A DNA stretch of 49,477 nt from Anaerolineae bacterium (GTDB lineage: Bacteria; Chloroflexota; Anaerolineae; UBA4142; SHND01): NCBI GenBank assembly GCA_022072245.1, contig JAJVIA010000066.1:1-49477 (forward strand), read 5' to 3'. The position numbers and the translations under genes were made by a program. Below are positions 1,662-16,872 of this stretch, in pieces. The notes beneath the pieces are model-generated. The model was not told the origin of the DNA. It searched no databases and saw only the letters and a list, made by a program, of their open reading frames with translations. Position 1 is the stretch's first letter; every line of letters starts with the position of its first letter.

Positions 1662-1690
1662 CCCGGTTTCCTCGAATGAAAGGGCAGAGC

Positions 1691-1966: not shown

Positions 1967-1995
1967 GGGGACATCCTCCTTCTCTTTGTTCTTCC

Positions 1996-2088
1996 CTCAC
2001 AACCCACCCCCATCCAATCGAGGGGGTGGGTTTCGGCTTTCTGAGCCATTACGGCTCATCGCTGGCCATCATCAGGCGAGGGGCGCGA
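1996..2088 (-). repeat. 93-bp repeat copy 1: gene end plus hairpin
   Basis: A 93-base segment repeated with high identity at 2505-2597. It covers the last codons and stop of the upstream gene (encoding APLA), a small GAGCC-ATTAC-GGCTC hairpin, and an 11-bp stem (AACCCACCCCC with its complement, 2001-2032, 10-nt loop). It lies between two same-direction genes and could act as a terminator, processing site or attenuator. Confidence 0.85.
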
Positions 2089-2476
2089 TTTGCCCGATCC
2101 AGTAAGATGTGCTGCCATCTGCAGCAATCTTCATGTAAACCTCGGCCTTGATGGCTCGCCCTATAAGACTTGAGCAGTCGAGGCCCTCAGAGACATCGAT
2201 ATCATCAGGAGTCATCCCGAATTTCTGGAGTTCCTCCATGAGCCATCTCAAGTGGCCAGCGGTTCGGTACAATCGACGCCACTTGCCGTCGAAGTTGAGG
2301 TTAACCCAAATGCGGTAAGTGGGATGGCACAGTTCCTTTTGGCACTCGATCTTGTATATCTCTCCTACGAAAGTCCCCAATTGAACGTATTTGTTGGTGA
2401 CCGAGAAATCGTCTTCGAGTTCCAATCGTTTGGATCGACAGTTCTTCGTGTTAATCACAGACACTTTTCCAGGCAT
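2072..2476 (-). CDS. hypothetical protein, 134 aa
   Basis: No recognised family. ATG at 2476 is preferred over the upstream in-frame start because GGGAGTG lies 5' of it. The protein is mixed alpha/beta with a Trp/Arg-rich middle (FDGKWRRLYRTAGHLRWL) and ends in IGQIAPLA. The last four residues match those of the neighbouring 138-aa protein because the gene ends lie in a duplicated 93-bp block. It is co-oriented with the ubiquitin-like operon and may be a late gene in it. Function unknown. Confidence 0.6.
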   Translation of the reverse strand: MPGKVSVINTKNCRSKRLELEDDFSVTNKYVQLGTFVGEIYKIECQKELCHPTYRIWVNLNFDGKWRRLYRTAGHLRWLMEELQKFGMTPDDIDVSEGLDCSSLIGRAIKAEVYMKIAADGSTSYWIGQIAPLA

Positions 2477-2504
2477 GTCGTTTTTCACTCCCTTCTCTAA
2501 TCTC

Positions 2505-2597
2505 CTCACGACCCACCCCCATCCAATCGAGGGAGTGGGTTTCGGCCTTCGAGCCCTTACGGCTCATCGCGCGGCCATCATCAGGCGAGGGGCGCGA
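2505..2597 (-). repeat. 93-bp repeat copy 2: gene end plus hairpin
   Basis: Second copy of the 1996-2088 repeat, same length and orientation, with scattered substitutions that largely keep the stem (ACCCACCCCC opposite GGGAGTGGGT). It spans the 3' end of the 138-aa gene and the gap before the 134-aa gene. Confidence 0.85.
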
Positions 2598-2997
2598 ATT
2601 CACGGATTACGAAGCGTTGCTCGGTGCGACCTCCGACGCCCTCACGCTCTTCAGCCTCGACACGGATCCGGACGCGCTTGCCGATCACGTCATCCTTGTG
2701 AAACCTGGAACCGACCTGGGACGGATCCAAACCCAGAGCAGTCGTGAAACGAACCAGACTCCTGCCCCGAAAGACGGGGCCGTACAACGTCTCGCCACCG
2801 GTCTCCGCGTTCGAGATAATCTCAGCACCCACCTGGCGGTAGGGCTTCCCATCCTTGGAAGTCTCATCGGACAGGCTCACAATCTCCGCCGCGTGTTCCC
2901 CAGCAAGATTCAGCGTTGCCCGCTTGCTAACGTCCTCGTGCAGTTCAACGTAGTCCTCCGGCCCACTTGACCGGGTCAACTTGTCCACTCTCGACAT
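2581..2997 (-). CDS. hypothetical protein, 138 aa
   Basis: Unknown family. ATG at 2997 has AAGGTGG five to eight bases upstream and is preferred to the GTG three codons earlier. The sequence is strongly beta-predicting and charged (GKRVRIRVEAEEREGVGG), reminiscent of small OB-like nucleic-acid-binding proteins, but no diagnostic motif is visible. It ends in the shared APLA tail. It lies 56 bases downstream of the JAB-E1 gene on the same strand and is probably co-transcribed. Confidence 0.6.
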   Translation of the reverse strand: MSRVDKLTRSSGPEDYVELHEDVSKRATLNLAGEHAAEIVSLSDETSKDGKPYRQVGAEIISNAETGGETLYGPVFRGRSLVRFTTALGLDPSQVGSRFHKDDVIGKRVRIRVEAEEREGVGGRTEQRFVIREFAPLA

Positions 2998-3053
2998 AGT
3001 TTCCACCTTCTTTCAATCGTCGTTGGATTCCCAATTCTTTCGGGAACGCACCA

Positions 3054-4496
3054 TCATCCCCTATCAGGTTCAGCGGCCACCAAGCTAGCGATCAGTAAGG
3101 AGTCGTCTTCGTCATCGACGGGAGACTGGAGCAACCTCTTCATGGGAGACGCGTCCGCCCAGCCTCGCTCAGCCTCAAAAGCGTCGCCGCAAACCGGGCA
3201 GCCGGGACGGCGCGGAAAAAAGTGCGACAGGTCCTGAACGGAAGGCTCCAACTCCTCGAACTGCAAGTACGCCGGAACATGCGAGACTAACCCAGGATAG
3301 AAATAAGCCAGGATGTTTCGGACCACGAGGGACGCCGCGAACGCGTTCGTGGTCACGACCTGAGGCGCTGGAGCAAGATCCGGACGATCCGAATACGAAG
3401 CCTGCGCCTTGCGCACCTCCTCCTCGATCCGAGGACCATACCCTGCCTCGACGCCCAAACAGTGAAGACAAGGCCCTTCGGGCAACTGCGACAGAACACG
3501 CGCCGTAATCCGGCAAGGCTCCAGGCCTCCGGAGTAGCTGATCAGAGTGCCCGCGTCAAAGAGCGGCTTGTGAAAACGCGCCGCAAACACCGCCAGGTCA
3601 TACCGGGTCGCGTCATTGTCGGGAAAACTGACCAAGACATCCGCGGCCTTGAGAGCCTCGACCGAATCCCCTTCCGGAAAGAACGTCCGGCAACCACGGA
3701 CCTTGATCTCTGGATCGAACTGGCGAACCTCGCGCGCCAATACCTTGACTTTGAACCTCCCCACGTCCCCTTTACGAAACCCCAAAAATCTGTTGGCGTT
3801 GTGAATCTCGACCCGGTCAGGATCCACAAAGATCATCCCCGCAGGCGAATAAAACTTCAGGAACTGCGCCACCACCGAATTGCCCCCACCCGCCCCGACA
3901 AACCCGAAGGTGCAGCGCGAAATCGACTCAAGAGCCTCCCGCGCTCCGGGACCTACCCGTAGTGTCCGGTCGTGAACAGCCTCTTCCAGCCGCGGGCAGT
4001 CCTGAGAGAGAGAGGAGTTCTTCGGCGTAACCCAACGCATACCGGTACGCCCCACAATCTTGATGAGATCAACCGGCTTCCAGGTCTTATCCACGCAGGA
4101 AATGACCTCCGCCACGATCCCATCCGCCCCCGACACCATCCGGACGTAGTCATCACAGAAACCAAGGACGTTATGACAGATTCGGAAGTCTTGGGCATCA
4201 TCCGTCGAACTGAAGTAAGAAGATCCCAAATGGGTATGACTGCTGATCAGCACGCCGTAACCGGAGGATCTGTGCCACACTTCCCAGGCGAGCTCATGCG
4301 AGGTCTCCACCAGCCCCGCCGACCGGTGCAAGTACTCCTCGTTCCTCAAAGTCCTCGAATCCCGCAGCACAAACTCCACCACATCGCCATAGCGAGAGAC
4401 GCTCCCGAACGAGTACACCAAGTGCTCCACGGACGGGTCATCAGACACCGTGATCTTTTTGAACGAACTTTCCGTAACCACCAAGCGATACTCCAT
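3054..4496 (-). CDS. JAB-domain isopeptidase fused to E1/ThiF-like adenylyltransferase
   Basis: A 480-aa two-enzyme fusion. The N-terminal JAB/JAMM metalloprotease has an exact H-x-H-x7-S-x2-D signature (H87, H89, S97, D100) with E41 as the likely upstream glutamate. The C-terminal half is an E1/ThiF/MoeB-type domain: GAGGGNS at 201-207, FVDPDRVE at 223-230 with N233 and R236, the adenylation motif FPDNDATRYD, and a zinc pair C343/C346 plus C433/C436. E1 would adenylate the C-terminal Gly of a ubiquitin-like protein; JAB would cleave it from targets or precursors. ATG at 4496 follows AAGGAGGTGA. The gene lies directly after the ubiquitin-like gene, separated by a hairpin. JAB-E1 fusions are known from bacterial ubiquitin-like systems, so the call is strong; substrates are unknown. 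Confidence 0.92.
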   Translation of the reverse strand: MEYRLVVTESSFKKITVSDDPSVEHLVYSFGSVSRYGDVVEFVLRDSRTLRNEEYLHRSAGLVETSHELAWEVWHRSSGYGVLISSHTHLGSSYFSSTDDAQDFRICHNVLGFCDDYVRMVSGADGIVAEVISCVDKTWKPVDLIKIVGRTGMRWVTPKNSSLSQDCPRLEEAVHDRTLRVGPGAREALESISRCTFGFVGAGGGNSVVAQFLKFYSPAGMIFVDPDRVEIHNANRFLGFRKGDVGRFKVKVLAREVRQFDPEIKVRGCRTFFPEGDSVEALKAADVLVSFPDNDATRYDLAVFAARFHKPLFDAGTLISYSGGLEPCRITARVLSQLPEGPCLHCLGVEAGYGPRIEEEVRKAQASYSDRPDLAPAPQVVTTNAFAASLVVRNILAYFYPGLVSHVPAYLQFEELEPSVQDLSHFFPRRPGCPVCGDAFEAERGWADASPMKRLLQSPVDDEDDSLLIASLVAAEPDRG

Positions 4497-4525
4497 GAAA
4501 CCTCACCTCCTTTCCTCGAACAGAG

Positions 4526-4566
4526 AAAGAGGGCTGACCCCAAACTGACCGAAGCCAGCCCTCTTT
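4526..4566 (-). terminator. intergenic hairpin between Ubl and JAB-E1
   Basis: Eleven-base perfect stem (AAAGAGGGCTG and its complement) with a 19-nt loop. Read on the minus strand it is followed by TCTCTG and then, shortly after, the JAB-E1 ribosome site. It resembles a weak intrinsic terminator or an RNA-processing stem. It could make the ubiquitin-like protein more abundant than the enzyme downstream. Confidence 0.7.
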
Positions 4567-4581
4567 TCATAGGTGGACAGG

Positions 4582-4791
4582 TCACCCACCGTATTGAGCC
4601 TGAACCGTGTTCCCGTAAGAACGACCCGGCTGCAGCACGGAATTCGGATCGACCCGCTGCTTCGTCTGGGCGTCATACACCACCGTCCCGGACGGCAGCT
4701 CCCCCACCTTCACCAACTGGGAGGGGGTCACCGTCTCAACCACCTCAAACTGAGCTCCGCCAGTCCCTTCCCTCGTCTTCATCAATCCCAT
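4582..4791 (-). CDS. ubiquitin-like modifier ending in Gly-Gly
   Basis: A 69-aa protein whose last residues are AQYGG followed directly by the stop, the mature-type end expected of a conjugatable ubiquitin-like protein. The C-terminal 45 residues (strand VVYDAQ, then VDPNSVLQPGRSY, then the tail) fit the end of a beta-grasp fold, resembling the bacterial multi-ubiquitin/Prok_Ub type. ATG at 4791 has GGAGG at good spacing. It lies between the E2-like and JAB-E1 genes, the neighbours such a modifier needs. The fold is inferred from pattern and context rather than from an alignment. The N-terminal 20 residues may be a flexible extension. Confidence 0.75.
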   Translation of the reverse strand: MGLMKTREGTGGAQFEVVETVTPSQLVKVGELPSGTVVYDAQTKQRVDPNSVLQPGRSYGNTVQAQYGG

Positions 4792-4839
4792 GGTCTCGAA
4801 CCTCCACTTCTATAGATTTCGCACCTCGCGTGGAAAGTC

Positions 4840-5286
4840 TCACGCATCGCTGTACAGGTACGTCTGAATACTCGCGATCATGTCCATGATGTTCTCTCTC
4901 TCCCCACAGGTCCCGTTGTAAACACAGATCCACTTCCAACCCGAATTGACCGGACCGCCGTGTGTCGGGTTCTCCCTGGGGGGGTGCCCTCGGCTCAACT
5001 CCCGCCAGCCATTCCGGCGCGGATCGAAGATTTGGAGTTTCTCATCCACAAAGACGTAATGATAAAACTGGTACCGCCCAGACTGTGGCAATGGGTCATA
5101 GAGGTTTGGCGGTATGGGAAGTAACAGATTGCAGTCAGGCAGGTTAAACCGCTGATCCAGCCGGATTGCCCCATAGATGATAATGTGAGAAAGCAAGCCC
5201 AAGTTGTTAAACTTCCACGTGGGCTTCCGCCGGAACCCAGCCTTCTTGAGATACACCAAGTCCTGATTCACCCTTTCAGTATTCAT
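4840..5286 (-). CDS. E2-like (UBC/RWD fold) protein, prokaryotic E2 family E-like
   Basis: A 148-aa protein matching the layout I remember for prokaryotic E2 family E: an N-terminal DLVYLKKAGF segment, a hydrophobic strand, LLLPIPPNLYDPLP in place of the E2 'YPxxPP' flap, then an aromatic strand and a C-terminal helix (MDMIASIQTYL). Candidate active residues are C121 in WKWICVYN, C127, H101 and H109. A Cys at the place where I would expect the family nucleophile (FVFVD, about 77-81) is absent, so the catalytic residue is uncertain. ATG at 5286 follows AAGGAGG. Lying one gene before the modifier and two before E1, it is probably the conjugating enzyme. Confidence 0.6.
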   Translation of the reverse strand: MNTERVNQDLVYLKKAGFRRKPTWKFNNLGLLSHIIIYGAIRLDQRFNLPDCNLLLPIPPNLYDPLPQSGRYQFYHYVFVDEKLQIFDPRRNGWRELSRGHPPRENPTHGGPVNSGWKWICVYNGTCGERENIMDMIASIQTYLYSDA

Positions 5287-5307
5287 TTGAGATTCCTCCT
5301 TTTCTTC

Positions 5308-5565
5308 TCACCGCTTCTCGTTTTGAAGGTCAGCCTCTTCATCCGGCCGGATCAGTCCGGCCGGATTCACGTTGTCATCCAAGCCCGCAATGGGCGGCCG
5401 GCGCACCTCCCCGCCCCTATCAAAACCGCCTGTTCCTCCGAGCAGGGGACCGAGGCCAAGTTTCGGCAACTCCTTCTTGACGTACCCTCCCAGGGAGGGC
5501 GAATAGCGCAGGTCCTCCGGCTCCTCCGGCAGGTCGTACTCGGGATAATCCAGTTCGAGCCGCAT
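5308..5565 (-). CDS. small acidic, glycine/proline-rich protein, 85 aa
   Basis: No recognised family. It opens with an acidic Tyr/Glu stretch (LELDYPEYDLPEEPEDL), has two Lys-Lys/Gly-rich segments and a Gly-rich centre, and looks largely disordered. ATG at 5565 follows AAGGAG. It lies 15 bases after the tubulin-like gene and 21 before the E2-like gene, clearly inside the operon. It could be an adaptor or a conjugation target (few lysines, clustered near residues 30-35). That is inference only. Confidence 0.65.
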   Translation of the reverse strand: MRLELDYPEYDLPEEPEDLRYSPSLGGYVKKELPKLGLGPLLGGTGGFDRGGEVRRPPIAGLDDNVNPAGLIRPDEEADLQNEKR

Positions 5566-5580
5566 CCGATCCCCACTCCT

Positions 5581-8229
5581 TCACACCTTCTGGTGATGAA
5601 GACTCGCCAATTCCTTGAGTTCCCCGGCCAACTGCTGCATGACCTTCGGAAACTCCCCTTTGGAGAGTTCCGGGAGGAGAGCCACATCGCGTAAACGCTG
5701 GAGCGCCCAGCCAAACTTCTTGTCCAACGTTTCGGCGACAAACCACGTACTCGCCTCCACCGCTGTGCGATACACCTCGAACACGCGGCTGACAGAATCC
5801 GGGGAAAGCGAGTCAAGAGAGAGACGAGTCCCGTGCTTGCTGGTGAAATTCCATTCACCATCGCTCTTGTCCACCATTCCCGCCGCCATACCCATCACGC
5901 AAAACCGCATCGCCTCAGTCGCGGAAGGACGCTCCGACACGAACGGCAACAGGTGCAGGATTGGCATGCGATGAGCGCGGCGCTGATCCTCCACACTCGA
6001 TTCCCGGTAAACCTTCTCGGCCCGCTGAATCGAAACCACCGCCCAGGCTGGAATGCGCACCACGACGCGCAGAAAGACAATCTCATTGGAGCTAGGCGAG
6101 GCCAGAAAGACGGGGTCTTCGGACAACCCCGCCGCTAGGGCTGTCTCCCGTATTCTGGGAACGAGTGAGCTTCCGCCTCCACCTGGCAGGAGGACATAGC
6201 AGAGCTGATTAGCAAGCTTGTACGTGGGATCCAACACAATCAGCGGGCTTGCGCTCACAAACGCTTTGTGAAGTACCTGGCCCAGATCAAGCCGGGCCTC
6301 CAAACGATCCGTCACATCAGACTCAGGAAGGCGGATTGCGCTCTCTGCTTCGGACTCAAGCAGTCGCTGGACCTCCTCCGCCGAAGGCCCGCGTCGCTTC
6401 TGGGCGTACGAACTGGCAAAGAGCGCGCGAAGCCGCTGAGCGGCCACCTTCCACTGCGCGGCAGAAATGCCCAAACGTCCGAAGTCCTCAGCGAACTCCT
6501 CCGGGTCGTCCAGGCACAAGCCCAAACCGCGATGAGCCATTCCTGATTCCTGCACCTCCGAAACGAGTTCCCCACAGGAATTCTCCAGAACCTGGAGCGT
6601 TTCCAGCATCCCGACCAGGACGCGTTCACACTCGGGCAAGAGAGCCAGGAAGTGGGCCTGGACCTCGGCGCAAACCTTGAAAATTTCGATATCATTCTCG
6701 ATGGCGAGAAGCAGCTCTCCCAACTGAACCATGGCTGCTGGAATCGGGACCTTTCTGAACGGATGCAGGGCGCACTCTTTGAGACCTCGGCGGGCTGCGG
6801 CCTCGGCGCGGAGCCGCGCCATCTGCTGCCGCACCTGTTCATTCTGATCAACCAGGCGGGCCGTCGCCTCTTCGAGCTGACGCGCCTTCTCCTGGCCGAT
6901 CTCCCGCATAGCGCGCACGAAACCGAGAGTCGTGGCCACGTTAAAGTGCGCGAGGGAGCCGGAAATCACTTCGTCCATCCTCATGCGCATCTGGCCTTTG
7001 ACGGTTTCAGCTGCCTGACGGTGTCGCTTGCGCAAAGGGGCCAGGCCCCGGCGGCACTCCTCGATGTGCTGTCCGATTGCGTCGACCTTGCTCGAAAGCC
7101 GCAGCGCCCGGCGAGGCTTTGAACGGATCCGTGCACCCATCGGGTCCTCAACTCCGAACGCCGCCTGGCGGATGTGCTTATTCAAGCCCTCCCCTTTCCC
7201 ATCCTCGGCCAGCCCATACTGCTTGATCATCTTCGCGGCCATGGTCTGGATGTTGCGGACAGGTTGTTGAGCCTCGGCATAGAGCGCCGCCATGAACAAG
7301 TGGTGATAAACCAATTGCCGCTCTGGGTCGGGACAGTAAAGGCGGTACATGCCCGCCGAACCCACCGTGGCCAATCCGTCGTTTGTCCGGTCCCTTCTGG
7401 CGTCCGGCAAGGCTTGAGCGAAAACCGGACTGACCACCTGGTGCTCAAACAGGAAATACTCCAAGCCTCCCACGGTGGCATCGAAGCTCCCCTGGGTCAG
7501 TCCCCTGTCCCCCGGATCGTGCAAACACCACAGGTTCGACGCCATCCGGAAAGGCTCCGCCACCCCCAGCCCTTTCGATGAGAAACCGGGATGACAAGCG
7601 CCGCCAGCCAGGATCGCGCACATATCCTGAAACGTCGCTGCCTGATTCCTCTTCTGGCGGTCGCTCATCTCAGAAAAGGTGTCCATGGGATGCCCCGTCA
7701 CCACCGCGTGCAGCTGGGTGCTGCTTGCGTGACCGCATTCCTCCTGAACCAGCTGGGCCGCACCGAGGGCGTGCGGAGCCGCCGAGCCACCGGTTCCCCC
7801 CATCGCGGTCAAATCGATCACTAAATGGTTGCCGTCCCGGTCCCGGCCCGCTTCTCCCCGAAACAGTTTGCTCACCACCGAAAGTAAGAGGTCCTTGTTC
7901 CAGGCGGCAAGCACATGACCGACGCCCCGCAAGAGACCCATGCCATCCCCGCCCGGGTCCGCCAAGTCGCGCCGGTCATTCGTGTCCAGGTGCGATATCT
8001 CTTCCCGTTGCATGCGAGCCGCAAGCGCGGGAAAACTGCACACCAGGACCTGCACGCAAACCGTGACCGTGCGCTTAACGAATGCGGGCACGGTCCGGGT
8101 TGAGCGTGACTCCTCCGAAACCATCACCACCGAGCAGGTGTCAGGAGGGCGACGGTCGAGAAAGCAGCGCTGGAAAGCCCTACGCCAGGCACGTCCGTTA
8201 CCCGAAGTTCCAAGGTCTAGAAATCCCAT
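5581..8229 (-). CDS. tubulin/FtsZ-like GTPase-family protein
   Basis: An 882-aa protein with an FtsZ/tubulin-type glycine loop, LTAMGGTGGSAAPH at about residues 140-153, preceded by a hydrophobic strand (LVIDL) and a Gly-rich N-terminus (DLGTSGNG, 5-12). Residues about 390-490 form a long charged helical/coiled-coil section. The C-terminal 300 residues include LIVLDPTYKLANQLCYVLLPGGGG. This pattern and the adjacent vWA gene match the FtsZl1/Tubulin_like families described by Makarova and Koonin as parts of predicted membrane-remodelling systems with vWA proteins. ATG at 8229 starts two bases after the vWA stop, with GAGGAGGTGG inside the end of that gene. Nucleotide binding is predicted, not shown; the family call rests on one motif plus context. 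Confidence 0.6.
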   Translation of the reverse strand: MGFLDLGTSGNGRAWRRAFQRCFLDRRPPDTCSVVMVSEESRSTRTVPAFVKRTVTVCVQVLVCSFPALAARMQREEISHLDTNDRRDLADPGGDGMGLLRGVGHVLAAWNKDLLLSVVSKLFRGEAGRDRDGNHLVIDLTAMGGTGGSAAPHALGAAQLVQEECGHASSTQLHAVVTGHPMDTFSEMSDRQKRNQAATFQDMCAILAGGACHPGFSSKGLGVAEPFRMASNLWCLHDPGDRGLTQGSFDATVGGLEYFLFEHQVVSPVFAQALPDARRDRTNDGLATVGSAGMYRLYCPDPERQLVYHHLFMAALYAEAQQPVRNIQTMAAKMIKQYGLAEDGKGEGLNKHIRQAAFGVEDPMGARIRSKPRRALRLSSKVDAIGQHIEECRRGLAPLRKRHRQAAETVKGQMRMRMDEVISGSLAHFNVATTLGFVRAMREIGQEKARQLEEATARLVDQNEQVRQQMARLRAEAAARRGLKECALHPFRKVPIPAAMVQLGELLLAIENDIEIFKVCAEVQAHFLALLPECERVLVGMLETLQVLENSCGELVSEVQESGMAHRGLGLCLDDPEEFAEDFGRLGISAAQWKVAAQRLRALFASSYAQKRRGPSAEEVQRLLESEAESAIRLPESDVTDRLEARLDLGQVLHKAFVSASPLIVLDPTYKLANQLCYVLLPGGGGSSLVPRIRETALAAGLSEDPVFLASPSSNEIVFLRVVVRIPAWAVVSIQRAEKVYRESSVEDQRRAHRMPILHLLPFVSERPSATEAMRFCVMGMAAGMVDKSDGEWNFTSKHGTRLSLDSLSPDSVSRVFEVYRTAVEASTWFVAETLDKKFGWALQRLRDVALLPELSKGEFPKVMQQLAGELKELASLHHQKV

Positions 8230-8231
8230 GA

Positions 8232-9566
8232 TTACGCCACCTCCTCCTCATCGTCTTCAGCCTGCCCGGCAGGCCGTAACTCGAACTCGAAATACAGTGA
8301 ATGCTTGTCCGAGAGCCGGACGGATGAACCGGGAAGGACCGGATCACGACGAAACCCCTTGGCCTGAACGACTGTGCCATCCGGGTGCGCGAAAAACTTG
8401 GACATCCCGGAAACTTCCGGCACATACATCCGGGCATGCCCCACGCTTCCGACCGTGATCTCCTCCCGGCCAGTCCCAAGAACGAACTCCTGGGACGCGA
8501 CCATCTCTCCCGTTTCATCCAAGACCACACTTGCATGGAGGATTCGGACAACCTCCTCGTTTGGATCAAGACCGGGCAGTGCTCCCAAGGCCCGGCGAAC
8601 CGCCCGGCGATAAATCAGCGGCACGGCCAAGCACATGGTGAAACCGCAGAGACCTGCAACCAGAACCCAGCCTGGGAATTGAATTTTGGGGACGCGGAGC
8701 CATGACCGCGAAGGTCCCTGTTTGGGAGGCGGTTCGGAGACGGTCACCACCGGAACCACCACCATTTCCGTCGCGGTCGGACGGGCAGTCGGAAATGAAG
8801 TCGGCGTCCAAGTCCATGTCGGACTTGGAGATCTCGTTGGAGCAACAGGCAAGAGGATTGGCAACGGAGTCGGGGTAGATGTTGGCGTTACGACAATCCG
8901 CCGCACTTGAACGGGCACGGGTGAGGGCTCTGCCTCTAACCTCTGGTTGAGCAGCGGTTCAAGAATAAGAGGAGAACCCCCGCTCACGCGCGTATCCAGC
9001 CGCAGGAAAGAATACTCCTTGGGCGCAACTATCCGCTGAAAGGACTTTTCGATCTCGTCCGAAAGGCCCACCACCAGCACCGAGTGACCCGCACTCGCCG
9101 GAAAATGCTCCCCGAGCAATCGCAGGACGTCCTTGAAAGAATGGCCGGAAGAGGGGTTACTGATCCCGCGTGTCAAAAGAACCACACAGCAGGGCAAGCC
9201 GTTCCATTTTCGCAGCGCGCCGAAGAGCTCATCGAAGTTGACAAACGGGTCCTTACCACCCGTTTTCGAAATGCGCTCCCGAAACAGGCGCACCTGCTCC
9301 GGAGTAAGCGCATCGGTGTGAGCCGCCTGAACCGGCTCACGCGCGAACTCGTACAGAACGACTTCGCGTGAAAGGTCTAACTGATCTAACAGATCGTTCG
9401 CGAAGGACCTCACCGAAGTCCACACCCAGCGCGTCCCCTCGCTCCTCTCAAGAACGAGAATTACACGGCGAGGAAGGACTTTGACCGTTTCACCCGAGCA
9501 AGAAGCCGGATGAACGCGGATCAAACAGATCGCCGCGACCAATGAGAAGCATGTGACGATACGCAT
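8232..9566 (-). CDS. secreted/membrane vWA-like protein with FHA-like tail
   Basis: A 444-aa protein with an N-terminal signal sequence (VTCFSLVAAICLI), a vWA-like domain at about 30-190 (VILVLERSEG, then VVLLTRGIS), a Pro/Thr/Ser-rich linker at about 225-275, one TM segment at about 305-325 (WVLVAGLCGFTMCLAVPLIY), and a C-terminal beta domain at about 345-430 resembling FHA (ITVGSVGHARMYVPEVSGMS). The MIDAS positions are degenerate: Glu and Gly replace the DxSxS Asp/Ser, and Arg replaces the later Asp. Metal binding is therefore doubtful. The FHA-like domain also lacks the usual GR and SxxH. The orientation implied is outer vWA, inner FHA-like domain facing the tubulin-like protein. GGAGAG precedes ATG 9566. 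Confidence 0.7.
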   Translation of the reverse strand: MRIVTCFSLVAAICLIRVHPASCSGETVKVLPRRVILVLERSEGTRWVWTSVRSFANDLLDQLDLSREVVLYEFAREPVQAAHTDALTPEQVRLFRERISKTGGKDPFVNFDELFGALRKWNGLPCCVVLLTRGISNPSSGHSFKDVLRLLGEHFPASAGHSVLVVGLSDEIEKSFQRIVAPKEYSFLRLDTRVSGGSPLILEPLLNQRLEAEPSPVPVQVRRIVVTPTSTPTPLPILLPVAPTRSPSPTWTWTPTSFPTARPTATEMVVVPVVTVSEPPPKQGPSRSWLRVPKIQFPGWVLVAGLCGFTMCLAVPLIYRRAVRRALGALPGLDPNEEVVRILHASVVLDETGEMVASQEFVLGTGREEITVGSVGHARMYVPEVSGMSKFFAHPDGTVVQAKGFRRDPVLPGSSVRLSDKHSLYFEFELRPAGQAEDDEEEVA

Positions 9567-9587
9567 CGATATTCTCTCCTTTCCTTT

Positions 9588-9809
9588 TTACTTGTGCTTC
9601 GCCCAAATCCTGACAATCGCGACGAGAGCAATCAGAAACATCGCCAGCCACGCAGAAGCCGTCACGACCGGATCAGTAGCACTCGAATCGAGAGCCGAGG
9701 AAAGGAAGCGCAGGATGCCGCCCCCCTCGACCATCGGCCACACCGCCAGGAAGAAAACCAGTAGAACAATCGCCAGTTCAAACCGGCTGAGACCGTCCCC
9801 GTTATTCAT
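9588..9809 (-). CDS. two-TM membrane peptide, 73 aa
   Basis: Two hydrophobic segments, FELAIVLLVFFLAVWPM and AWLAMFLIALVAIVRIW, are joined by a short Ser/Asp-rich loop, with a basic end (WAKHK). The start overlaps the HerA-like stop by eight bases and the stop is 21 bases before the vWA start, so it is translationally linked to both. It may anchor or assemble the vWA/tubulin-like complex. No family recognised. Confidence 0.75.
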   Translation of the reverse strand: MNNGDGLSRFELAIVLLVFFLAVWPMVEGGGILRFLSSALDSSATDPVVTASAWLAMFLIALVAIVRIWAKHK

Positions 9810-11877
9810 AACTCTGCCTCCACCAGCTCACGTAGTCGCGAAGAAAGTCCCCAAGAATCGAAACGTGAATCCGATTTCTCAATTCTCTGGGGATCTCACG
9901 ATCCAAAACTGCCAGTACATTAGATGTGTCTTCTGAGCCCACGATCAGCCACTGGTAAGTAAGCGATTGGACGGCCAGATTTCGCTGGGCATTGGCCAAG
10001 CCCTTGGTGGAAAGCTCAATCTCAATCGCCACCACACGCGGATTCCCGTCACGGTCCTTAAATTTGTGAACCAAGTCGATCGATTTGTGGTCGATGGTCT
10101 GTTCAATCAGAATTTCAAAACCACACTCTTCGAGCGCATAGGCAAATTCGTGTTGATAACCCACGTGCTCCACGCCGCCTTTGCCTTGTGGCGGCGGTGC
10201 TCCAATCACGTCACGACCTTTTTCCGTGAGGAACGCCGTGGTGCGCTGGCCGCCCCGGCCCGGAAGCACCAGCCGATGCGAACCCACCAAACCCTCTGCA
10301 ACCGACTGGTCAAACAGCTTCTTCCCCGTCCCCGGAGCCAGACGGGCGTGCTTGTACACACTGGTGACCCCTTCCCTACCGACAGCCAAGACTGAAAAGA
10401 GAAATCCCAAGAGCCGATGAGAGACGGTTGGAACGACGGGCGCTGGAGTCTTGACCTCCATCGAAGGAGGAGTCCGAGGAGGCACTTCCTCCGCAATCAG
10501 CGGAACATCCGCGAGTGGGAAACGAAGTGAATCCAAGAAGGGGGCTTGATAACGAACAATCTCCTCCGGGTTGAGCGGAGTTGTATCCACAGGCCAGTCC
10601 AGCGTGTGCATGAGGAAGGCCTCACGAAAGTCCCCCGCACCCAGTCGGCAGTAGCAACACCTGTCGCCCAAAGAACCAATCTGGGCCGCCGCTGGAGTCG
10701 GAAGCCCCAGCGACTCCACCATGCTCATTTGCGCTCGCCCCTCCCGCAACGCGAACACAAAGACATTCCCCGCATCGTTTAAGACATTCCGATTGATCTC
10801 AGTCGGATTCTGAACCACAAAGCACAACTGAAGCCCGACCGCGCGCGACTGATGCACCAACTCCGTTATGGCAGTGATCGAGTAGGTCCCAGCCTCCAAT
10901 TTAAGGGATAGGACGTACTCCCCCTCCTCGATGACGACCCACACCAGCGCCGCGTTCTCGCGCACCCCCAACGCGCGCAGGAATAGGAACAACCGCTGGA
11001 GCAGGGTCACCACGAAAGTGACGCGAAGATCCATACGTCCGAGCGATTCCGTCCGGATCACCACCACGCGGTTACGTAACAGATCTTCCGGGCAGACGCC
11101 CCTCTCCACGTTCCAGGCATCTCCAAACACGTCGATCATCGATTGCAAGCGGTCAATGCAGGAATTCAAGGCCTCACGATTGTGGGCATACCTTCGAGCG
11201 TTGGCGCGCAGAAAACGCACCAACCGCAGCACGGTCGGAGTGCGCCCCTCAGCCGCAACCTGAGCGATCCCATCCAAGAGCACATTTTGCGATCGGTGAA
11301 AGAGGCACAGTGTATCGCTCCACGCGGAAACCACGGCGCGCGAATTCGTCTCCAGATCCACGCCACGCTGGGGCGCGAGCGGATTCATGGGGAGCTTGGC
11401 CGCATCCACCACCAACACCTCGCCCGGAAATTGACGAGCCATATGGGTGTAGTCATTGCGAGGATCAATGATGAGAACCGCTTTATGATGCCGCACCTCG
11501 GCCACCAACAAACCAACCAAACTCGACTTGCCCGAACCCGAACTGCCGATGACAACGCACGGCCTCGGTGGTGTGTCGCTGATCAGCACCGGATTCGGCC
11601 CTTCGGGGTCAATGGTGTGGCCCACCAGAAAGTTGCCAGTGACCACCTGTGCCGCACTCGGTGGCGGAACCACAAGACCTGCCTGAAGCATCGCGCTCTG
11701 ACGACTGGCGATGAGTCCGTCCAGCAGCTCGAAATCTTCCCGGCGCGCGCAGCCCACTTCGATCAGGCGAAGGAAGCGGCGAAAGCGCTCAACCGCGATC
11801 AGGTTGAGCCGAGCCCCCATCCGCAAGTAGTGGTCAAAGGACTGCAAGGAAGCCGGGCGTTCGGAATGGTCTGTCAT
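9802..11877 (-). CDS. HerA/TraG-like ATPase with C-terminal nuclease-like domain
   Basis: A 691-aa protein. Walker A GSSGSGKSS is at 111-119, followed by AVLIIDPRNDY (133-143), the strand typical of the HerA/FtsK branch; VWVVIEEGEYV fits Walker B. These ATPases pump DNA or remodel hexameric complexes. After about residue 470 there is a winged-helix-like stretch, then a domain with SIDLVHKF...VVAIEIELS, spaced like the D...ExE/K core of PD-(D/E)xK nuclease folds; the second acidic residue plus Glu instead of Lys makes activity uncertain. ATG 11877 overlaps the preceding stop by four bases. The ATPase call is firm, the nuclease part tentative. Confidence 0.82.
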   Translation of the reverse strand: MTDHSERPASLQSFDHYLRMGARLNLIAVERFRRFLRLIEVGCARREDFELLDGLIASRQSAMLQAGLVVPPPSAAQVVTGNFLVGHTIDPEGPNPVLISDTPPRPCVVIGSSGSGKSSLVGLLVAEVRHHKAVLIIDPRNDYTHMARQFPGEVLVVDAAKLPMNPLAPQRGVDLETNSRAVVSAWSDTLCLFHRSQNVLLDGIAQVAAEGRTPTVLRLVRFLRANARRYAHNREALNSCIDRLQSMIDVFGDAWNVERGVCPEDLLRNRVVVIRTESLGRMDLRVTFVVTLLQRLFLFLRALGVRENAALVWVVIEEGEYVLSLKLEAGTYSITAITELVHQSRAVGLQLCFVVQNPTEINRNVLNDAGNVFVFALREGRAQMSMVESLGLPTPAAAQIGSLGDRCCYCRLGAGDFREAFLMHTLDWPVDTTPLNPEEIVRYQAPFLDSLRFPLADVPLIAEEVPPRTPPSMEVKTPAPVVPTVSHRLLGFLFSVLAVGREGVTSVYKHARLAPGTGKKLFDQSVAEGLVGSHRLVLPGRGGQRTTAFLTEKGRDVIGAPPPQGKGGVEHVGYQHEFAYALEECGFEILIEQTIDHKSIDLVHKFKDRDGNPRVVAIEIELSTKGLANAQRNLAVQSLTYQWLIVGSEDTSNVLAVLDREIPRELRNRIHVSILGDFLRDYVSWWRQSYE

Positions 11878-12260
11878 GGCTTATCACTCCCCGAACTCCC
11901 CACGGGGGAGAACAACCAATTCACGGCGCGCCCCAACCGCGCCCACACCGAACAGCGGCGGCAATAAATCTTCTTATTGATCTCATGCCTGTCCGCACGG
12001 CATAGAACCAAGTCGCACCGGTGACACCGCTTGACGCCCTTGGCGCTGAGCCGTTTGCCACAGGACCCACAGGCGGGCCCAACCGATTTGATGTTTTCGA
12101 CGCCAATCCCGTCCGCAAGGAAGCTGCGACGGGTTCTGGTTTCGAGAATTTCCCCCTCCTCTCCCTCCACGACCGTAATCTCGTCCGAAATGACCACGTC
12201 TTGTCCCGTATCGTTATCCCTGACCACCGCCCGATTAACACTTTGCTTCATGAGCACCAT
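11874..12260 (-). CDS. RING-like binuclear treble-clef zinc protein (candidate E3)
   Basis: A 128-aa protein with eight ordered metal ligands: C64-x2-C67-x11-C79-x2-C82-x4-C87-x4-H92-x7-C100-x2-C103. This is the alternating pair pattern of binuclear treble clefs (RING, B-box, LIM-like). Burroughs, Iyer and Aravind described such domains as E3-like partners of bacterial E1/E2/ubiquitin-like systems. The N-terminal 60 residues are acidic and beta-rich; the tail (WARLGRAVNWLF) is amphipathic and may touch membrane. ATG 12260 follows GGAGGTGA and overlaps the ATPase gene by 13 bases. In this operon an E3 or adaptor role is likely but is inference; spacing is not a textbook RING. Confidence 0.68.
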   Translation of the reverse strand: MVLMKQSVNRAVVRDNDTGQDVVISDEITVVEGEEGEILETRTRRSFLADGIGVENIKSVGPACGSCGKRLSAKGVKRCHRCDLVLCRADRHEINKKIYCRRCSVWARLGRAVNWLFSPVGSSGSDKP

Positions 12261-13783
12261 GACTTCACCTCCGTTTGAGTCTCAGAACCTTCCTGCACGT
12301 CCAACCCGTGAGCCGCCTGCGCCTCGCGCAAAAGTGCTCTGTCCAGCTCGTACACCGTCTTGGGATAATGGTTCGAGCCTTGCCCAGGCATCGACTCGAC
12401 CAATCGAGTCCGATAAGTCCGCGTGATCACACCATGCGCCCGAAGCAGGAACCCAACCTGTTGGATGGTGAAAGATTGAGAGGTGTAATCCGAAAGAAAC
12501 CGCGCCAGGTCGCAGGCCGCAACGACTGGCGATTCTCCCCCTTCCTTGCGAAACGATGCCAAGAACGCTTCCGTCCCCGACAAAGCCAGAAGGGATGGAT
12601 CGACCGCGGCCCTCTCTTCACGCTGCCGGGATACCTGTTCTTCCATCAACGACTCGATTCCAGGAGAGATCGGAGCTGCCGAACGGTCTGAGGAGTCCAC
12701 GTACTTCGCCAATCCCAGGAGCGGCGACCACTTCTCCAACGACCGCCCCTTCAAGCTCGACCGCGCCCGCACCTCCCGGTAAGCCTCACGGATGTTCTCG
12801 AACTGAGTCATAGCCAGCCAAAAATTCTGATCCCGCAAGCGAGACGCCACCTCAATCTGTTCGTCCAACAGGAATGGGGGGAGCGGAACCTGCGAAGGGG
12901 CAGAGCTGACATTGATTGTCCTGTCCTCGAATGCCTCCGAGGAGCGGCATCCCGCGACAACAATCGTGAGCCCGAACAGACTTTGCCTGCGCAACTCGTT
13001 CCCCGGCCCGCACAGGAGGCGCCCAGCATCCCTCTTGTAGGAAGACAGCACCAATGGGTCCCCGGGGGTCGATAGCGCTTCGTCCAGAAGAAGAGTGCAT
13101 GGGTCCAACGCCCTTGCTCTGGATAGAGCCGCAAGGGTGGATGAGGAGCACAATAGAGGTGACCGGGAGAAAGAGGACAGCACGTTAAGGAGAGTGGTCT
13201 TTCCGACACCAACTCCACCACGCAAGACAATGATGGGGATAGCGGGGAAGATCACCACCACAAAAGAAAGCACCGCCAAGAGCGAGATCAAATCCAGGTA
13301 CCGCAAGTCAGGCAGCCGAACAAATCTCTCTATGAAACTGCGCTGTTCTTCAAACGCCTCCCGCGCCGTGACAGGCGCCATATCACCGGCAAGAAAACGA
13401 TCAAGACTTGCCGTTGACCAAACCGAAAGAGTCGGCGGCACAACTATTCGCAACCCATTCTTTGTCTCGCTCAGATACTCGCGCGACGGGCACAAGCCGC
13501 CAGCAGCAAGAGTCTCGAATGAAATCTCAATACTCTCCCTCCGAGATGAAACAAGGAGACCAGCATTGGTCTGCCCACCACGCGGGACCGTTTGATATAG
13601 AACTCCGTTCACCAGATCTTGTGAAAGTCGGACAACCAACAGGTCAGACACGGGATGAAACCTTCCTTTCTTAGAGTTCTGCAGGGGATCGTACAAAAGG
13701 CCCAAGATGTAACGCCGAGGAAGGGCTAAGGAACGAGCGGCATTCCCATTGAAAGCAGCGACGCCATCGACGGGGCACACCAT
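12248..13783 (-). CDS. P-loop ATPase, phage/plasmid primase-helicase-like
   Basis: A 511-aa protein with Walker A LRGGVGVGKTTLLN at about 187-200, preceded by a hydrophobic run (YLDLISLLAVLSFVVVIFPAIP) as in plasmid/phage D5- or DUF927-like ATPases that load on nucleic acid, and Walker B CTLLLDEAL. The C-terminal 120 residues are helical and end in a probable winged-helix (FTIQQVGFLLRAHGVITRTY). No good ribosome site precedes ATG 13783, so a later start is possible. A strong hairpin separates it from the regulator gene. It may be a switch ATPase of the system or an element-replication gene; I cannot tell. Confidence 0.72.
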   Translation of the reverse strand: MVCPVDGVAAFNGNAARSLALPRRYILGLLYDPLQNSKKGRFHPVSDLLVVRLSQDLVNGVLYQTVPRGGQTNAGLLVSSRRESIEISFETLAAGGLCPSREYLSETKNGLRIVVPPTLSVWSTASLDRFLAGDMAPVTAREAFEEQRSFIERFVRLPDLRYLDLISLLAVLSFVVVIFPAIPIIVLRGGVGVGKTTLLNVLSSFSRSPLLCSSSTLAALSRARALDPCTLLLDEALSTPGDPLVLSSYKRDAGRLLCGPGNELRRQSLFGLTIVVAGCRSSEAFEDRTINVSSAPSQVPLPPFLLDEQIEVASRLRDQNFWLAMTQFENIREAYREVRARSSLKGRSLEKWSPLLGLAKYVDSSDRSAAPISPGIESLMEEQVSRQREERAAVDPSLLALSGTEAFLASFRKEGGESPVVAACDLARFLSDYTSQSFTIQQVGFLLRAHGVITRTYRTRLVESMPGQGSNHYPKTVYELDRALLREAQAAHGLDVQEGSETQTEVKSWCS

Positions 13784-13794
13784 AACTTAAGGGG

Positions 13795-13831
13795 GGCGGG
13801 GCGCTGGCAACTTCCTGACCAGCGCCCCGCC
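13795..13831 (-). terminator. strong GC hairpin between regulator and ATPase genes
   Basis: Thirteen-base perfect stem (GGCGGGGCGCTGG with complement) and 11-nt loop in a 62-base intergenic gap. Read on the minus strand it is followed by a C-run, not a T-run. It may be an attenuator, a Rho-type pause or an mRNA-processing structure that lets the regulator be expressed apart from the operon. Confidence 0.75.
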
Positions 13832-13845
13832 AGTCCAAAACTCCA

Positions 13846-14481
13846 TTACCGAGGAACGTCGAAGAGCACAAAGGAAACGCCCTTGATGTGGTACTGCTCA
13901 CCCTCGAAGTCAGTTGAGAACGGACCGGTCTTATTCATCACTTCAACGAGGGCGTCAATCGCCGCACCGACCGAAGCGCGACTCGGCTTCTCCACACCCT
14001 CCCGATCCACAATTTCCTGCCTCAGCACTTCGCTGGAGGCATGCCCATTGTGGCGCAGGAAAGCGTACAGGATGCTCAACTGGCGAGGTGGCAAGTAGAT
14101 GACCTGCCCCAGATACCAGACCCAGCCAGTCAGGATGTCCATAACCAAGTCTGTCCGCCTGCAATGAGTCTCCTGCCCTAAGACGATCTGAAGCGCGTCC
14201 TGAGGCTGGCAGCAGGCCTCAATCCGCAGGAATACCGAAACCGGGTATTCCTTGAGGAAATTCGTGAACACTGTAAAGCCACACCAATCCGCCCCCTCAT
14301 AAGAGGCGTTGGCAAACAGGTGCACGGACAAGTTCCTGACCACCTCAAAAAAGCAGCCGATCGGACGATTCAAATGAATAACCTGCATGACTGCCTGCTC
14401 CGCACTCGTCCTAGGCTCCTTTCCGCTCAAAAGCGCGATAAACACCACCAACAATTCCGCAATGCTGTAGTTGCCGTTCAT
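13846..14481 (-). CDS. winged-helix regulator-like protein
   Basis: A 211-aa protein. Residues about 125-205 (VIYLPPRQLSILYAFLRHNG, then SEVLRQEIVDREG and SVGAAIDALVEVMNKTG) follow the OmpR/SARP-type C-terminal winged-helix pattern. The N-terminal 110 residues are Cys/aromatic-rich and unrecognised, possibly a sensing domain. It is the first gene of the minus-strand operon, so control of that operon is the simple guess. ATG 14481 sits just after a G-run/C-run stem (GGGGGTAACCCCC) rather than a clear ribosome site, which may itself be regulatory. Confidence 0.6.
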   Translation of the reverse strand: MNGNYSIAELLVVFIALLSGKEPRTSAEQAVMQVIHLNRPIGCFFEVVRNLSVHLFANASYEGADWCGFTVFTNFLKEYPVSVFLRIEACCQPQDALQIVLGQETHCRRTDLVMDILTGWVWYLGQVIYLPPRQLSILYAFLRHNGHASSEVLRQEIVDREGVEKPSRASVGAAIDALVEVMNKTGPFSTDFEGEQYHIKGVSFVLFDVPR

Positions 14482-14914: not shown

Positions 14915-15544
14915 ATGTCCAAATACAGCATTGAGGACCTGATCAGGCTTCACCGGGAGAACTCGACCGAGGAAATCAAGGAGGAAGTAAACAATCTTAT
15001 ACGTGCCTACGATCCTGCTCTGCGGAGATTCTGGAGGACCAAGGGATTACGAAAAGAAGATGTTGATGACCTCAGCCAGGAGACCTGGGAGGAGGTGCTC
15101 TATAGATCGGAATACAAAGAAGACCCCAACGCAGAATTCACAACTTACTTGATCGCCGTATCAAAGAATACGAAGGCGGAATCCTGGCGCAGGGAGGGCA
15201 GGAGAAAAAAGCGTGAAGAGCGTGATTATCCCGGAATCCGCCCAAAGCTTAGCAACCCTCGCCAGCAAGCAGAGGCGTCAAAGTTCATGTCAGATTATCG
15301 CGCATGCCTCAGAGATCTTCCGGACGATGCGTTCCAGAAAACTGTTTTCCTCCTTTCGGCCCGCCGCAGCTATTCACAAGAAGAGATCATGAAGCTGATT
15401 GGGGCCAAATCCCGGACTATCGTATGGGACCGCATCGTTATGGCAACGAAATGGATGGAGGAAGCACTCCACAAACGGGAATGGCCAAACCCCGACGTGA
15501 GAGGAATCCTTGAAGAAGGGTTCCAATGGGAGGCGGAAAAATGA
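14915..15544 (+). CDS. ECF-family RNA polymerase sigma factor
   Basis: A 209-aa protein with sigma region 2 at about 22-95 (LIRAYDPALRRFWRTKGL, DVDDLSQETWEEVLYR, TTYLIAVSKNTKAESWRR) and a region-4 helix-turn-helix at about 135-190 (LLSARRSYSQEEIMKLIGAKSRTIVWDRI). It lacks region 3, as expected of ECF sigma factors. ATG 14915 follows AAGGGATA. Its stop overlaps the next start (ATGA), coupling it to the anti-sigma gene. It probably directs its own operon and other envelope genes; the target promoter is not visible beyond the weak upstream repeats. Confidence 0.88.
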   Translation: MSKYSIEDLIRLHRENSTEEIKEEVNNLIRAYDPALRRFWRTKGLRKEDVDDLSQETWEEVLYRSEYKEDPNAEFTTYLIAVSKNTKAESWRREGRRKKREERDYPGIRPKLSNPRQQAEASKFMSDYRACLRDLPDDAFQKTVFLLSARRSYSQEEIMKLIGAKSRTIVWDRIVMATKWMEEALHKREWPNPDVRGILEEGFQWEAEK

Positions 15545-16872
15545 ACTGCGAAGAATGCAAAGAATACCTCCTCGACTACATTAGGGGAATGGCGCCCCCC
15601 TCCATTGCGAAAGCAATCAAAGACCACCTCAACGTCTGCCCAACTTGCGCCGACGAAGTTGATCAAGTGAAGACTCACCTTCGCATCATGGAGGCATTCC
15701 CCGCTAAAGAGGTCACAGAGAAAGTTGTAGAACGGGTGTGCCTTGAATCTGATAAGCATCCGAAGCGGCCCCAGATGTGGGAGATGGTTACTTTGAAGCA
15801 TCTACCCACCCCAGGCCGCGTCGCTGCAGCAATCCTTCTGCTTGTTTTGATCGGGCTTTGGATCAACCCATTCGGAACCAATCCAATCCCTCTCTCGCTG
15901 GTTGAAGCCCCCGCGCTTGGCAACCTCGAAACCGTCCTCAAACAATCGAGAAGCCTGGCCCAGTTACGCCAATCGACCAAGTACAGCCCGGTTCAGGTTG
16001 CTCCCTCGACTCTGGGACCAGAAGGCCGCTCAGAGGTCAATACACTCGACCGATTCAAGCGCCTCCTGGCCGCCATCACGATCCCCAACAATCAAGAAGC
16101 CGCCATCAGCTCAGCAGCCATTATTGTGAACGTGTCGCCAGGACTCGCCCTTGCGCCCCGCCAACCTGGCGAAGCCCCTTTACTTACAACACTCTCCGTC
16201 TCCAAAGACATCGACGGGAATCTCATGGCAGAGCTCAACCGCAATCAACTCCTCCTATCGCAAACCCTTTTCCAGGATGACCACCTCGCGCTTCTCTACG
16301 TCCCCGCGCTCCGCGATACGAGCCTCGGGTATGATCTCCAGTCAGCCAGGTTCGCCGAGAGCGCACCGGTCGGACCGCAACCCTTCATACTCATCAGCCT
16401 CAGCGAGTCGGCCAAACCCATCACCGTCGCCGGAATCGAGGCAACCACCACCCCAGACGGCGCGCTTGCCCCCGCGTTTCCCGAAGACGAACAAGCGCTC
16501 CGGGATGCTCCGGCGGGCACAATCCTCCTAAACGCAAGGAATGAGATCCAAGGCCTAATTGTCGCCGAACCCAGCGGAAGCAAGAAACTCCTGACCACTG
16601 ATCAAGTTCAGTCGTTCCTCAAGAAAGCGACCAGCAGCATCGAGCCCGCCAGCCTGATCCAGAGACCGTCCCCGCTGCCCAGAGAGATTCTCTCCCAAGG
16701 GCGCGAAAGACCTCTTGCCACAACCGAAGGACAATCTCACCTGCTTGAGGCCCGAGTCCGTATCCAGGAAAGCGGGACCTTCGAGATCGCAATTGACGCC
16801 GACAAGGACGGTAGACCAGACCTGGTCCTTCATTCAGACCATCCCGGCCTGCTCAACACCAGTCCTCAATGA
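15541..16872 (+). CDS. zinc-finger anti-sigma factor with large extracytoplasmic domain
   Basis: 443 aa from ATG 15541, chosen because it overlaps the sigma stop as ATGA and has GGGAGGCGG before it. The N-terminus has the ZAS motif H29-xxx-C33-xx-C36 plus C3/C6, which binds the cognate sigma. One TM helix follows at about 93-109 (RVAAAILLLVLIGLWI). The outer 330 residues include AGTILLNARNEIQGLIV, shaped like the GDSGSP strand pair of trypsin-fold proteins but without the catalytic Ser. It may be a pseudoprotease sensor; that fold is only a guess. The gene overlaps the CHAT peptidase gene (ATGA), suggesting the peptidase acts on it or through it. Confidence 0.8.
   Translation: MNCEECKEYLLDYIRGMAPPSIAKAIKDHLNVCPTCADEVDQVKTHLRIMEAFPAKEVTEKVVERVCLESDKHPKRPQMWEMVTLKHLPTPGRVAAAILLLVLIGLWINPFGTNPIPLSLVEAPALGNLETVLKQSRSLAQLRQSTKYSPVQVAPSTLGPEGRSEVNTLDRFKRLLAAITIPNNQEAAISSAAIIVNVSPGLALAPRQPGEAPLLTTLSVSKDIDGNLMAELNRNQLLLSQTLFQDDHLALLYVPALRDTSLGYDLQSARFAESAPVGPQPFILISLSESAKPITVAGIEATTTPDGALAPAFPEDEQALRDAPAGTILLNARNEIQGLIVAEPSGSKKLLTTDQVQSFLKKATSSIEPASLIQRPSPLPREILSQGRERPLATTEGQSHLLEARVRIQESGTFEIAIDADKDGRPDLVLHSDHPGLLNTSPQ

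Follow-up and report, generated by a model that had tools for sequence, protein, structure and literature searches.

Can a ubiquitin-like conjugation pathway and a tubulin-like membrane machine, encoded in one gene run, be parts of a single system? The question is raised by the window, by which we mean the whole 49,477-base stretch analysed here (bases 1-49477 of contig C9, which has 75,166 bases and belongs to a metagenome-assembled genome (MAG) of 141 contigs, 79.75% complete). On its minus strand, eleven close-packed genes running from 14481 down to 3054 encode a JAB-E1 fusion, an E2-like protein and a candidate ubiquitin-like modifier (Ubl) together with an FtsZl1-type tubulin-like protein, a vWA protein and a HerA-like ATPase. 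Some bacterial E1/E2/JAB pathways are anti-phage while others, e.g. Bub, have no proven role (PMC13373217), and for FtsZl1-vWA systems a role in membrane remodelling was predicted in 2010 (Makarova and Koonin, PMC2875224); all comparisons with published systems below refer to the passages covered of each source. Our reading, to which we give a probability of about 0.45, is that the locus encodes a conflict (possibly anti-phage) machine on an integrative element, in which a membrane tubulin-like assembly would be controlled by Ubl conjugation. That two cargo modules simply lie side by side is almost as likely as a coupled machine.

Gene organization

The gene set is real and contiguous as the first-pass annotation described it. 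Every open reading frame (ORF) named there was present in our ORF check, while an 85-amino-acid (aa) ORF of unassigned role at 5308-5565 had been omitted from the inventory. In order of transcription the genes encode a possible regulator, a P-loop protein, a zinc protein, a HerA-like ATPase, a peptide with two transmembrane (TM) segments, a membrane vWA protein, the tubulin-like protein, the 85-aa protein, E2, the 69-aa modifier candidate and JAB-E1. The successive gaps are 62, -13, -4, -8, 21, 2, 15, 21, 48 and 85 nt, in agreement with the proposed minus-strand operon with overlaps or tiny gaps (-13 to 85 nt). From vWA through JAB-E1 all genes share one strand with gaps of 2-85 nt, and the 85-aa gene sits between the two modules, 15 and 21 nt from its neighbours.

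The same order was found in a second assembly. Over window 596-8230, contig QWHO01000318.1 ('bacterium CPR1') aligns without gaps at 98.95% identity (80 differences in 7,635 bases) and spans part of the integrase gene through JAB-E1, modifier, E2 and the tubulin-like gene. Between the copies there are 25 synonymous and 13 nonsynonymous changes in JAB-E1, 13 and 9 in the tubulin-like gene, 3 and 2 in E2, and no stops. The per-site nonsynonymous to synonymous ratios are 0.17, 0.22 and 0.19, the last from five changes only, showing purifying selection on these three ORFs. The modifier (0 synonymous, 1 nonsynonymous) and the 85-aa gene (1 and 0) have too few changes for their coding to be judged. 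The join from the tubulin-like gene to vWA falls outside the span of the second contig; window 8300-12000 gave no match in the CPR1 genome, and an empty answer of such a search is uninformative.

The tubulin-like protein and its vWA neighbour

The 882-aa protein encoded at 5581-8229 was compared with a profile of 27 FtsZl1/Tubulin_2 proteins, from which rows L015, L026 and L030 were left out. The hhalign score was 38.1, colinear over aa 3-211, and was reached by none of 200 shuffles (maximum 25.3) and by none of 10 other window proteins. The motifs GTSGNG (aa 7) and GGTGGS (aa 144) coincide with the T1 and T4 loops in the alignment. At the profile level, then, the tubulin/FtsZ-like assignment of the first-pass annotation was upheld, and the profile evidence favours a tubulin fold for this protein. 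The relationship is distant: there was no Tubulin_2 match above the Pfam cut-off, a plain hidden Markov model of Tubulin_2 proteins gave a weak coiled-coil match only, and comparisons with single sequences and subgroups were marginal. Against five plasmid tubulins alone the result was negative (10 of 100 shuffles reach the score), whereas with all sequences no shuffle in 100 did. The exact GGGTG(S/T)G loop is absent, the protein having MGGTGGS at aa 143-149. By eye, the middle of the protein is probably a coiled coil. The lone Pfam match, ATG14 (E 0.21), was taken as chance. A seeming relative within a sensor-kinase-like long ORF (aa 441-525, E 5e-4; 149 relatives searched) was rejected as coiled-coil similarity.

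The vWA gene (8232-9566) lies only 2 nt from the tubulin-like gene, giving the adjacency that characterizes FtsZl1-vWA systems. Its product scored 39.6 by hhalign, a value that none of 200 shuffles (maximum 20.8) and none of 14 other window proteins reached; the profile was made of 27 trimmed domains, 26 of which had been selected by a motif of the metal ion-dependent adhesion site (MIDAS) type. With untrimmed sequences the test was negative, 84 of 100 shuffles reaching the score, and the MIDAS motif of the protein itself is degenerate (LERSEG). Its hydrophobicity shows a hydrophobic stretch at the N-terminus and a single TM-like segment at aa 299-320. Hence the vWA and TM parts of the earlier description stand, while the FHA-like tail is seen by eye only. 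Canonical DxSxS is missing from three vWAs beside Ubl genes, namely LERSEG here, MDNVNQ in L089:1610-4294 and MDNVNH in L102:3832-4848. It is present in many other FtsZl1-linked vWAs, but these were selected by motif.

The conjugation cassette

JAB-E1 (480 aa; 3054-4496) was described as a fusion with intact motifs, and so it is: ThiF matches at E 1.1e-26, and both JAMM (H87-x-H-x7-S-x2-D) and the E1 motif (D225-x-D..NxxR) are intact. Prok-JAB matches at E 0.0084, below its cut-off. There were 24 matches in PDB, including ThiF (9e-8) and Citrobacter BubCD 9ea4 (2e-6), and PADLOC models for E1-E2 were matched over the E1 part, with a best value of 3.3e-10. JAB is fused N-terminal to E1 in one protein, as in Type 6e/Bub-like cassettes.

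The E2-like protein (148 aa; 4840-5286) has a candidate active Cys121 in GWKWICVY. Pfam gave nothing useful for it, and AlphaFold without an alignment gave an uninformative model, with a predicted local distance difference test (pLDDT) value of 44. Against a profile of 8 E2s encoded next to related E1 genes, 7 of them with Cys, it aligned over aa 4-123 with a score of 38.9; none of 200 shuffles (maximum 20.0) and none of 8 other short window proteins came up to this, and the global (full-length) score was 31.7 against a shuffle maximum of 12.3. The statistic is not blind, because the 8 E2s were chosen after a shared motif had been seen. Two of them (L121 and L122, in genomes G265 and G257) are Pfam Prok-E2_E matches and have in common with the window protein the segment P-x3-GWKW-x-CVY. 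A smaller E2_E profile test with corrected rows was reached by 1 of 150 shuffles locally and by none of 150 globally. The profile match bears out the E2-like call, and as judged from it an E2/RWD-fold partner, as in Type 6e/Bub-like cassettes, is present.

The 69-aa protein (4582-4791) ends in QYGG and is encoded between E2 and JAB-E1. At L121 and L122 one protein combines an N-terminal segment ending in TYGG with E2, and JAB-E1 comes next. A small ORF, E2 and JAB-E1 also form stand-alone cassettes in the class of the window (L142, L148, L149), with the order modifier-E2-JAB-E1, versus E2-modifier-JAB-E1 here. Because of its position in such a cassette and its YGG end, and without a sequence match, we take the 69-aa protein as a candidate Ubl. 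Size, ending and place of the annotated modifier are therefore right, while a profile does not demonstrate its identity (the score was reached by 66 of 200 shuffles locally and 11 of 200 globally). E2 gave nothing on plasmids and viral contigs, and seven pattern matches to JAB-E1 on viral contigs yielded no confirmed case.

Comparison with known systems

The closest published relatives of the conjugation part are the Type 6e (polyUbl) operons, in which JAB is fused to the E1 N-terminus and accompanied by Ubl, an E2-like protein and a zinc protein (Iyer et al., 2006, PMC1779556). The window resembles these and Bub in its JAB-E1 fusion, Ubl-candidate gene, E2-like gene and zinc protein (PMC1779556, PMC13373217). 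It differs from them in its single short modifier candidate, in an E2 with a candidate Cys and in the adjoining vWA-FtsZl1-HerA genes. The zinc spacing, too, differs from the Type 6e/Bub-like C-x3-C-x35-38-H-x2-C. The Type 6e/Bub-like Ubl is a beta-grasp protein of 70-75 aa; the window candidate has 69 aa, a GG end and the expected position, without profile support.

The other module is like the FtsZl1-vWA systems in its FtsZl1-type N-terminal domain, adjacent vWA and membrane proteins, and unlike them in its Ubl genes, of which the passages covered hold none, in falling below Tubulin_2 detection and in lacking the exact GGGTG(S/T)G (PMC2875224). Kaur et al. (2020, PMC7159879) described GAP1-N2 systems with tubulin and vWA and, separately, Ubl-bearing FtsH-ternary systems. 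These predicted conflict systems are like the window in having tubulins and vWA, or JAB, E1, RING and Ubl-E2, but in the passages covered the two sets belong to two separate systems (PMC7159879). The TRAFAC GTPase of GAP1-N2 is also missing here: no GTPase, HSP70, MoxR or FtsH family was above cut-off in the 11 operon proteins, RsgA_GTPase giving sub-cut-off P-loop matches only.

In CBASS, Cap2/Cap3 accompany a CD-NTase as an E2-E1 fusion and a separate JAB. In the window, by contrast, JAB is fused to E1, E2 is separate and no nucleotidyltransferase match was found in the operon, although E1-E2 models of PADLOC do recognize the E1 part. Bil encodes Ubl, E2, E1 and JAB as separate genes, unlike the JAB-E1 fusion seen here. 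On the Crinalium plasmid pCRI9333.03 (L110:11983-17201), E1, two small proteins (Ubl-like by eye), E2, JAB and a VirD4-like ATPase are encoded together. As in the window, Ubl conjugation genes there adjoin a DNA-pump-type ATPase; in contrast, no tubulin or vWA is annotated in the region shown, and the ATPase has no similarity to the window HerA.

In the main text of a 2026 BREX survey a word search found no word starting with tubulin, FtsZ or ubiquitin (PMC12839542). No description of Ubl combined with FtsZl1-vWA was met in the literature searched, and it may have been printed earlier (Burroughs et al., 2011, 2012, and two main Bub papers lay outside the search). Ubl cassette and vWA-FtsZl1 pair each belong to known kinds, which are mostly found separately.

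A second pairing in another genus

That the pairing might be peculiar to this contig was not borne out. G423:C159 carries a partial E1 (ThiF 1.3e-34) beside a gene for a TM protein whose end is RING-like (zf-UDP 3e-4, sub-cut-off); divergent to these are a vWA gene and the beginning (74 aa) of an FtsZl1 gene. A search of 47 genomes of its class with this vWA gave matches in 9, and the closest match besides itself was G354:C312 of the same genus. There, E2 (UQ_con 0.005, sub-cut-off), E1 (ThiF 2e-44) and a RING-like gene accompany a divergent vWA that reaches the contig end; the Tubulin_2 match of this genome sits on a different contig. The nucleotide identity between the two loci is 76.7% in E1, 71.7% in vWA and 84% in a 141-column stretch from the RING-like gene to vWA. 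As the Ubl gene set and its order are kept in two species, the second pairing is more compelling than it would be on ThiF alone, and since a similar pairing with different parts exists in another genus, the two machines may work together.

Other genes of the run

The HerA-like ATPase, zinc protein, P-loop protein and regulator belong to the gene run as well. The HerA-type ATPase of the first-pass annotation (691 aa; 9802-11877) was confirmed by DUF87 (6.8e-10) and matches PADLOC mad8 (4.3e-14); its nuclease-like tail is seen by eye only. The two-TM peptide (73 aa; 9588-9809) was likewise found, with two TM-like segments by hydrophobicity. The zinc protein (11874-12260) has the Cys/His spacing C-x2-C-x11-CH-x-C-x4-C-x12-C-x2-C, which is RING/B-box-like by eye only, all family matches being sub-cut-off; the second ATPase (12248-13783) has a P-loop (GGVGVGKT) and no assigned family; and the possible winged-helix regulator (13846-14481) gave weak NCBIfam matches (E 0.063 and 0.19) and no Pfam match at E 0.5. 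Directly divergent from the operon, at 14915-21548 on the plus strand, an extracytoplasmic function (ECF) sigma factor, a zf-HC2 protein and a 1559-aa TPR-CHAT protein are encoded in a row.

The integrative element

Downstream of JAB-E1 come three small genes, a tyrosine integrase gene (164-1597, minus strand; PF00589 E 5.7e-6, 26.6 bits, slightly below the curated cut-off of 27.1) and a tRNA-Pro (CGG) gene found by ARAGORN (51-127, plus strand), the presumed attL. The locus is thus element cargo beside a tRNA, as had been claimed. The last 27 bases of tRNA-Pro (101-127) recur exactly at G000:C126:10934-10960, near a contig end where no tRNA gene was found, and a 35-base stretch inside both presumed element ends is 86% identical. 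C126 is likely the other end of the same element. Its cargo (L045:356-9793) includes a DruE-like helicase (1e-121), Abi_C (6e-20) and a retron-type reverse transcriptase (4e-68). A search for the empty site gave 12 places in 4 genomes, all within query bases 39-131 (the tRNA part) and none into the right flank, a result that is uninformative about the site. The tRNA-Pro(CGG) of the 'bacterium CPR1' MAG is 81% identical to that of the window, and those of the same-genus genomes G001 and G003 are 80% and 79% identical; identities this low (79-81%) allow for recent transfer or mis-binning, which makes the host of the element uncertain.

Several repeats were seen in the window. Positions 1995-2098 and 2504-2607, between the small genes behind JAB-E1, hold two repeats (47 nt at 94%, 35 nt at 89%), and the small genes at 2072 and 2581 share a C-terminal APLA. 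Fourteen 78-nt copies lie within a 2233-aa ORF at 34276-40065, and 96-nt repeats at 49000-49477 reach the window end.

Coupled machine or separate cargo

In the coupled machine that we favour, a nucleotide-dependent assembly of the FtsZl1 type would be tethered to the membrane by the vWA protein. The small GG-ended modifier would be activated by E1, passed to E2 (on Cys121) and then attached either to one of the components of this assembly or to a protein of the invader caught at the same place, and the zinc protein may serve as E3. Removal of the modifier would fall to the JAB part of the JAB-E1 fusion, and in this way conjugation would switch or aim the assembly. A defence setting is suggested by the Druantia-, Abi- and retron-like genes on C126 and by BrxL and caspase neighbours of plasmid FtsZl1 loci. 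FtsZl1 genes were found on 6 plasmid records. Three Thermales plasmids (L159, L162, L163) carry vWA-FtsZl1-hypothetical and then BrxL, amid helicase, methylase or nuclease genes, an insertion sequence (IS) intervening in one; vWA-FtsZl1-hypothetical-BrxL is possibly a defence module of its own. The Azospirillum TSA2s plasmid has caspase-family genes near its FtsZl1 locus, and the remaining two plasmid loci have neither BrxL nor caspase-family genes. Of the earlier reading, the contiguity of the Ubl set with FtsZl1-vWA on a tRNA-associated element and the plausible defence setting were supported, while we infer the coupling of the modules, the target of modification and the defence role. A more specific version, in which the modifier would join the FtsZl1-type protein, the vWA anchor or the 85-aa protein and be removed by JAB, invasion would trigger or disarm the machine, and the link would have arisen twice (JAB-E1/E2_E and E2-E1-RING), seems unlikely.

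A number of observations weigh against coupling. Tubulin_2 matches occurred in 45 of 400 genomes of the phylum, of which 8 were left out since their ORFs of 240-410 aa look like ordinary FtsZ, and among the 43 neighbourhoods analysed from the other 37 genomes just one, G423:C159, has E1; the modules are usually apart. A single ThiF match in 43 has a roughly estimated chance expectation of ~0.2, which is weak on ThiF alone. The FtsZl1 match of G423 is ended by the contig end at 24.7 bits (Pfam cut-off 27), and in the second pairing neither the E2 match nor the RING match reaches its cut-off. Seen from the other side, at E 1e-15 a JAB-E1 relative is present in 5 of 400 genomes of the phylum, and at E 1e-12 in 17 of 298 of the class, the window's own genome counted in both, and none of 21 E1 neighbourhoods matched Tubulin_2 profiles, which would miss a gene as divergent as that of the window (many contigs were of 3-7 kb, and several matches covered the E1 part only). 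Four further E1 neighbourhoods were compared with single window proteins only. No ThiF, E2 or JAB gene is listed at any of the 6 plasmid FtsZl1 loci in the regions shown of PLSDB's incomplete gene table. Beyond the near-identical contig, the tubulin-like gene has no close homologue among 149 relatives, plasmids, viral contigs and genome contigs, and HerA at E 1e-12 was found among 298 genomes of the class in the window's genome alone, at two places. The 69-aa candidate is unproven as a modifier and does not match the small proteins of the L142/L148/L149-type cassettes, and the presumed other element end lies on a separate contig.

In the main alternative, a Ubl-E2-(JAB-E1) cassette landed downstream of an FtsZl1-vWA-HerA machine on a defence-collecting element, giving two unrelated cargo modules without coupling. 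We regard this as a serious contender, though somewhat short of an even chance: the modules are mostly found apart in both neighbourhood searches, small ORF-E2-(JAB-E1) cassettes stand alone in the same class, and vWA and tubulin are set closer together (2 nt) than the genes of the Ubl part are (48 and 85 nt). Mere co-residence is less easily reconciled with the second, differently built pairing, whose order is kept in two species of another genus, with the altered E2/modifier order relative to stand-alone cassettes, or with the 85-aa gene placed between the modules at such short distances.

The tubulin-like, HerA and P-loop proteins might instead be an element maintenance or transfer apparatus (TubZ-like or conjugation) regulated by the Ubl genes. 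A second HerA-like ATPase, alike along most of its length (E 6e-20), is encoded on the same contig (C9:61270-63270, i.e. L046:12270-14270), VirB4-type conjugation models are among the weak HerA matches, and C9 also encodes ArdC, a second recombinase and an N6 methylase-SNF2 gene. We nevertheless consider this improbable: vWA genes were near FtsZl1 in 23 of 40 neighbourhoods elsewhere (a crude motif search that covered 40 of the 43 and did not extend to element genes), and a relaxase was absent from the scanned proteins, which cover only part of the contig. Chance or a binning or assembly artefact is very improbable, for even though at least one bin may be wrong given the tRNA-Pro identities of 81% for the near-copy's MAG and 79-80% for own-genus genomes, a second assembly that matches over 7.6 kb without gaps links part of the integrase gene to JAB-E1, modifier, E2 and the tubulin-like gene, and the substitutions between the copies are of the coding type.

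Meaning for both systems

A locus that joins both modules, together with a differently built second case, gives the coupled machine a concrete form: a membrane-anchored tubulin relative may be the target or platform of Ubl conjugation. Such a hypothesis serves both sides, the Ubl pathways without a proven role and the FtsZl1-vWA systems with their predicted membrane remodelling. If it is true, a bacterial tubulin-family assembly at the membrane would be regulated by ubiquitin-like conjugation.

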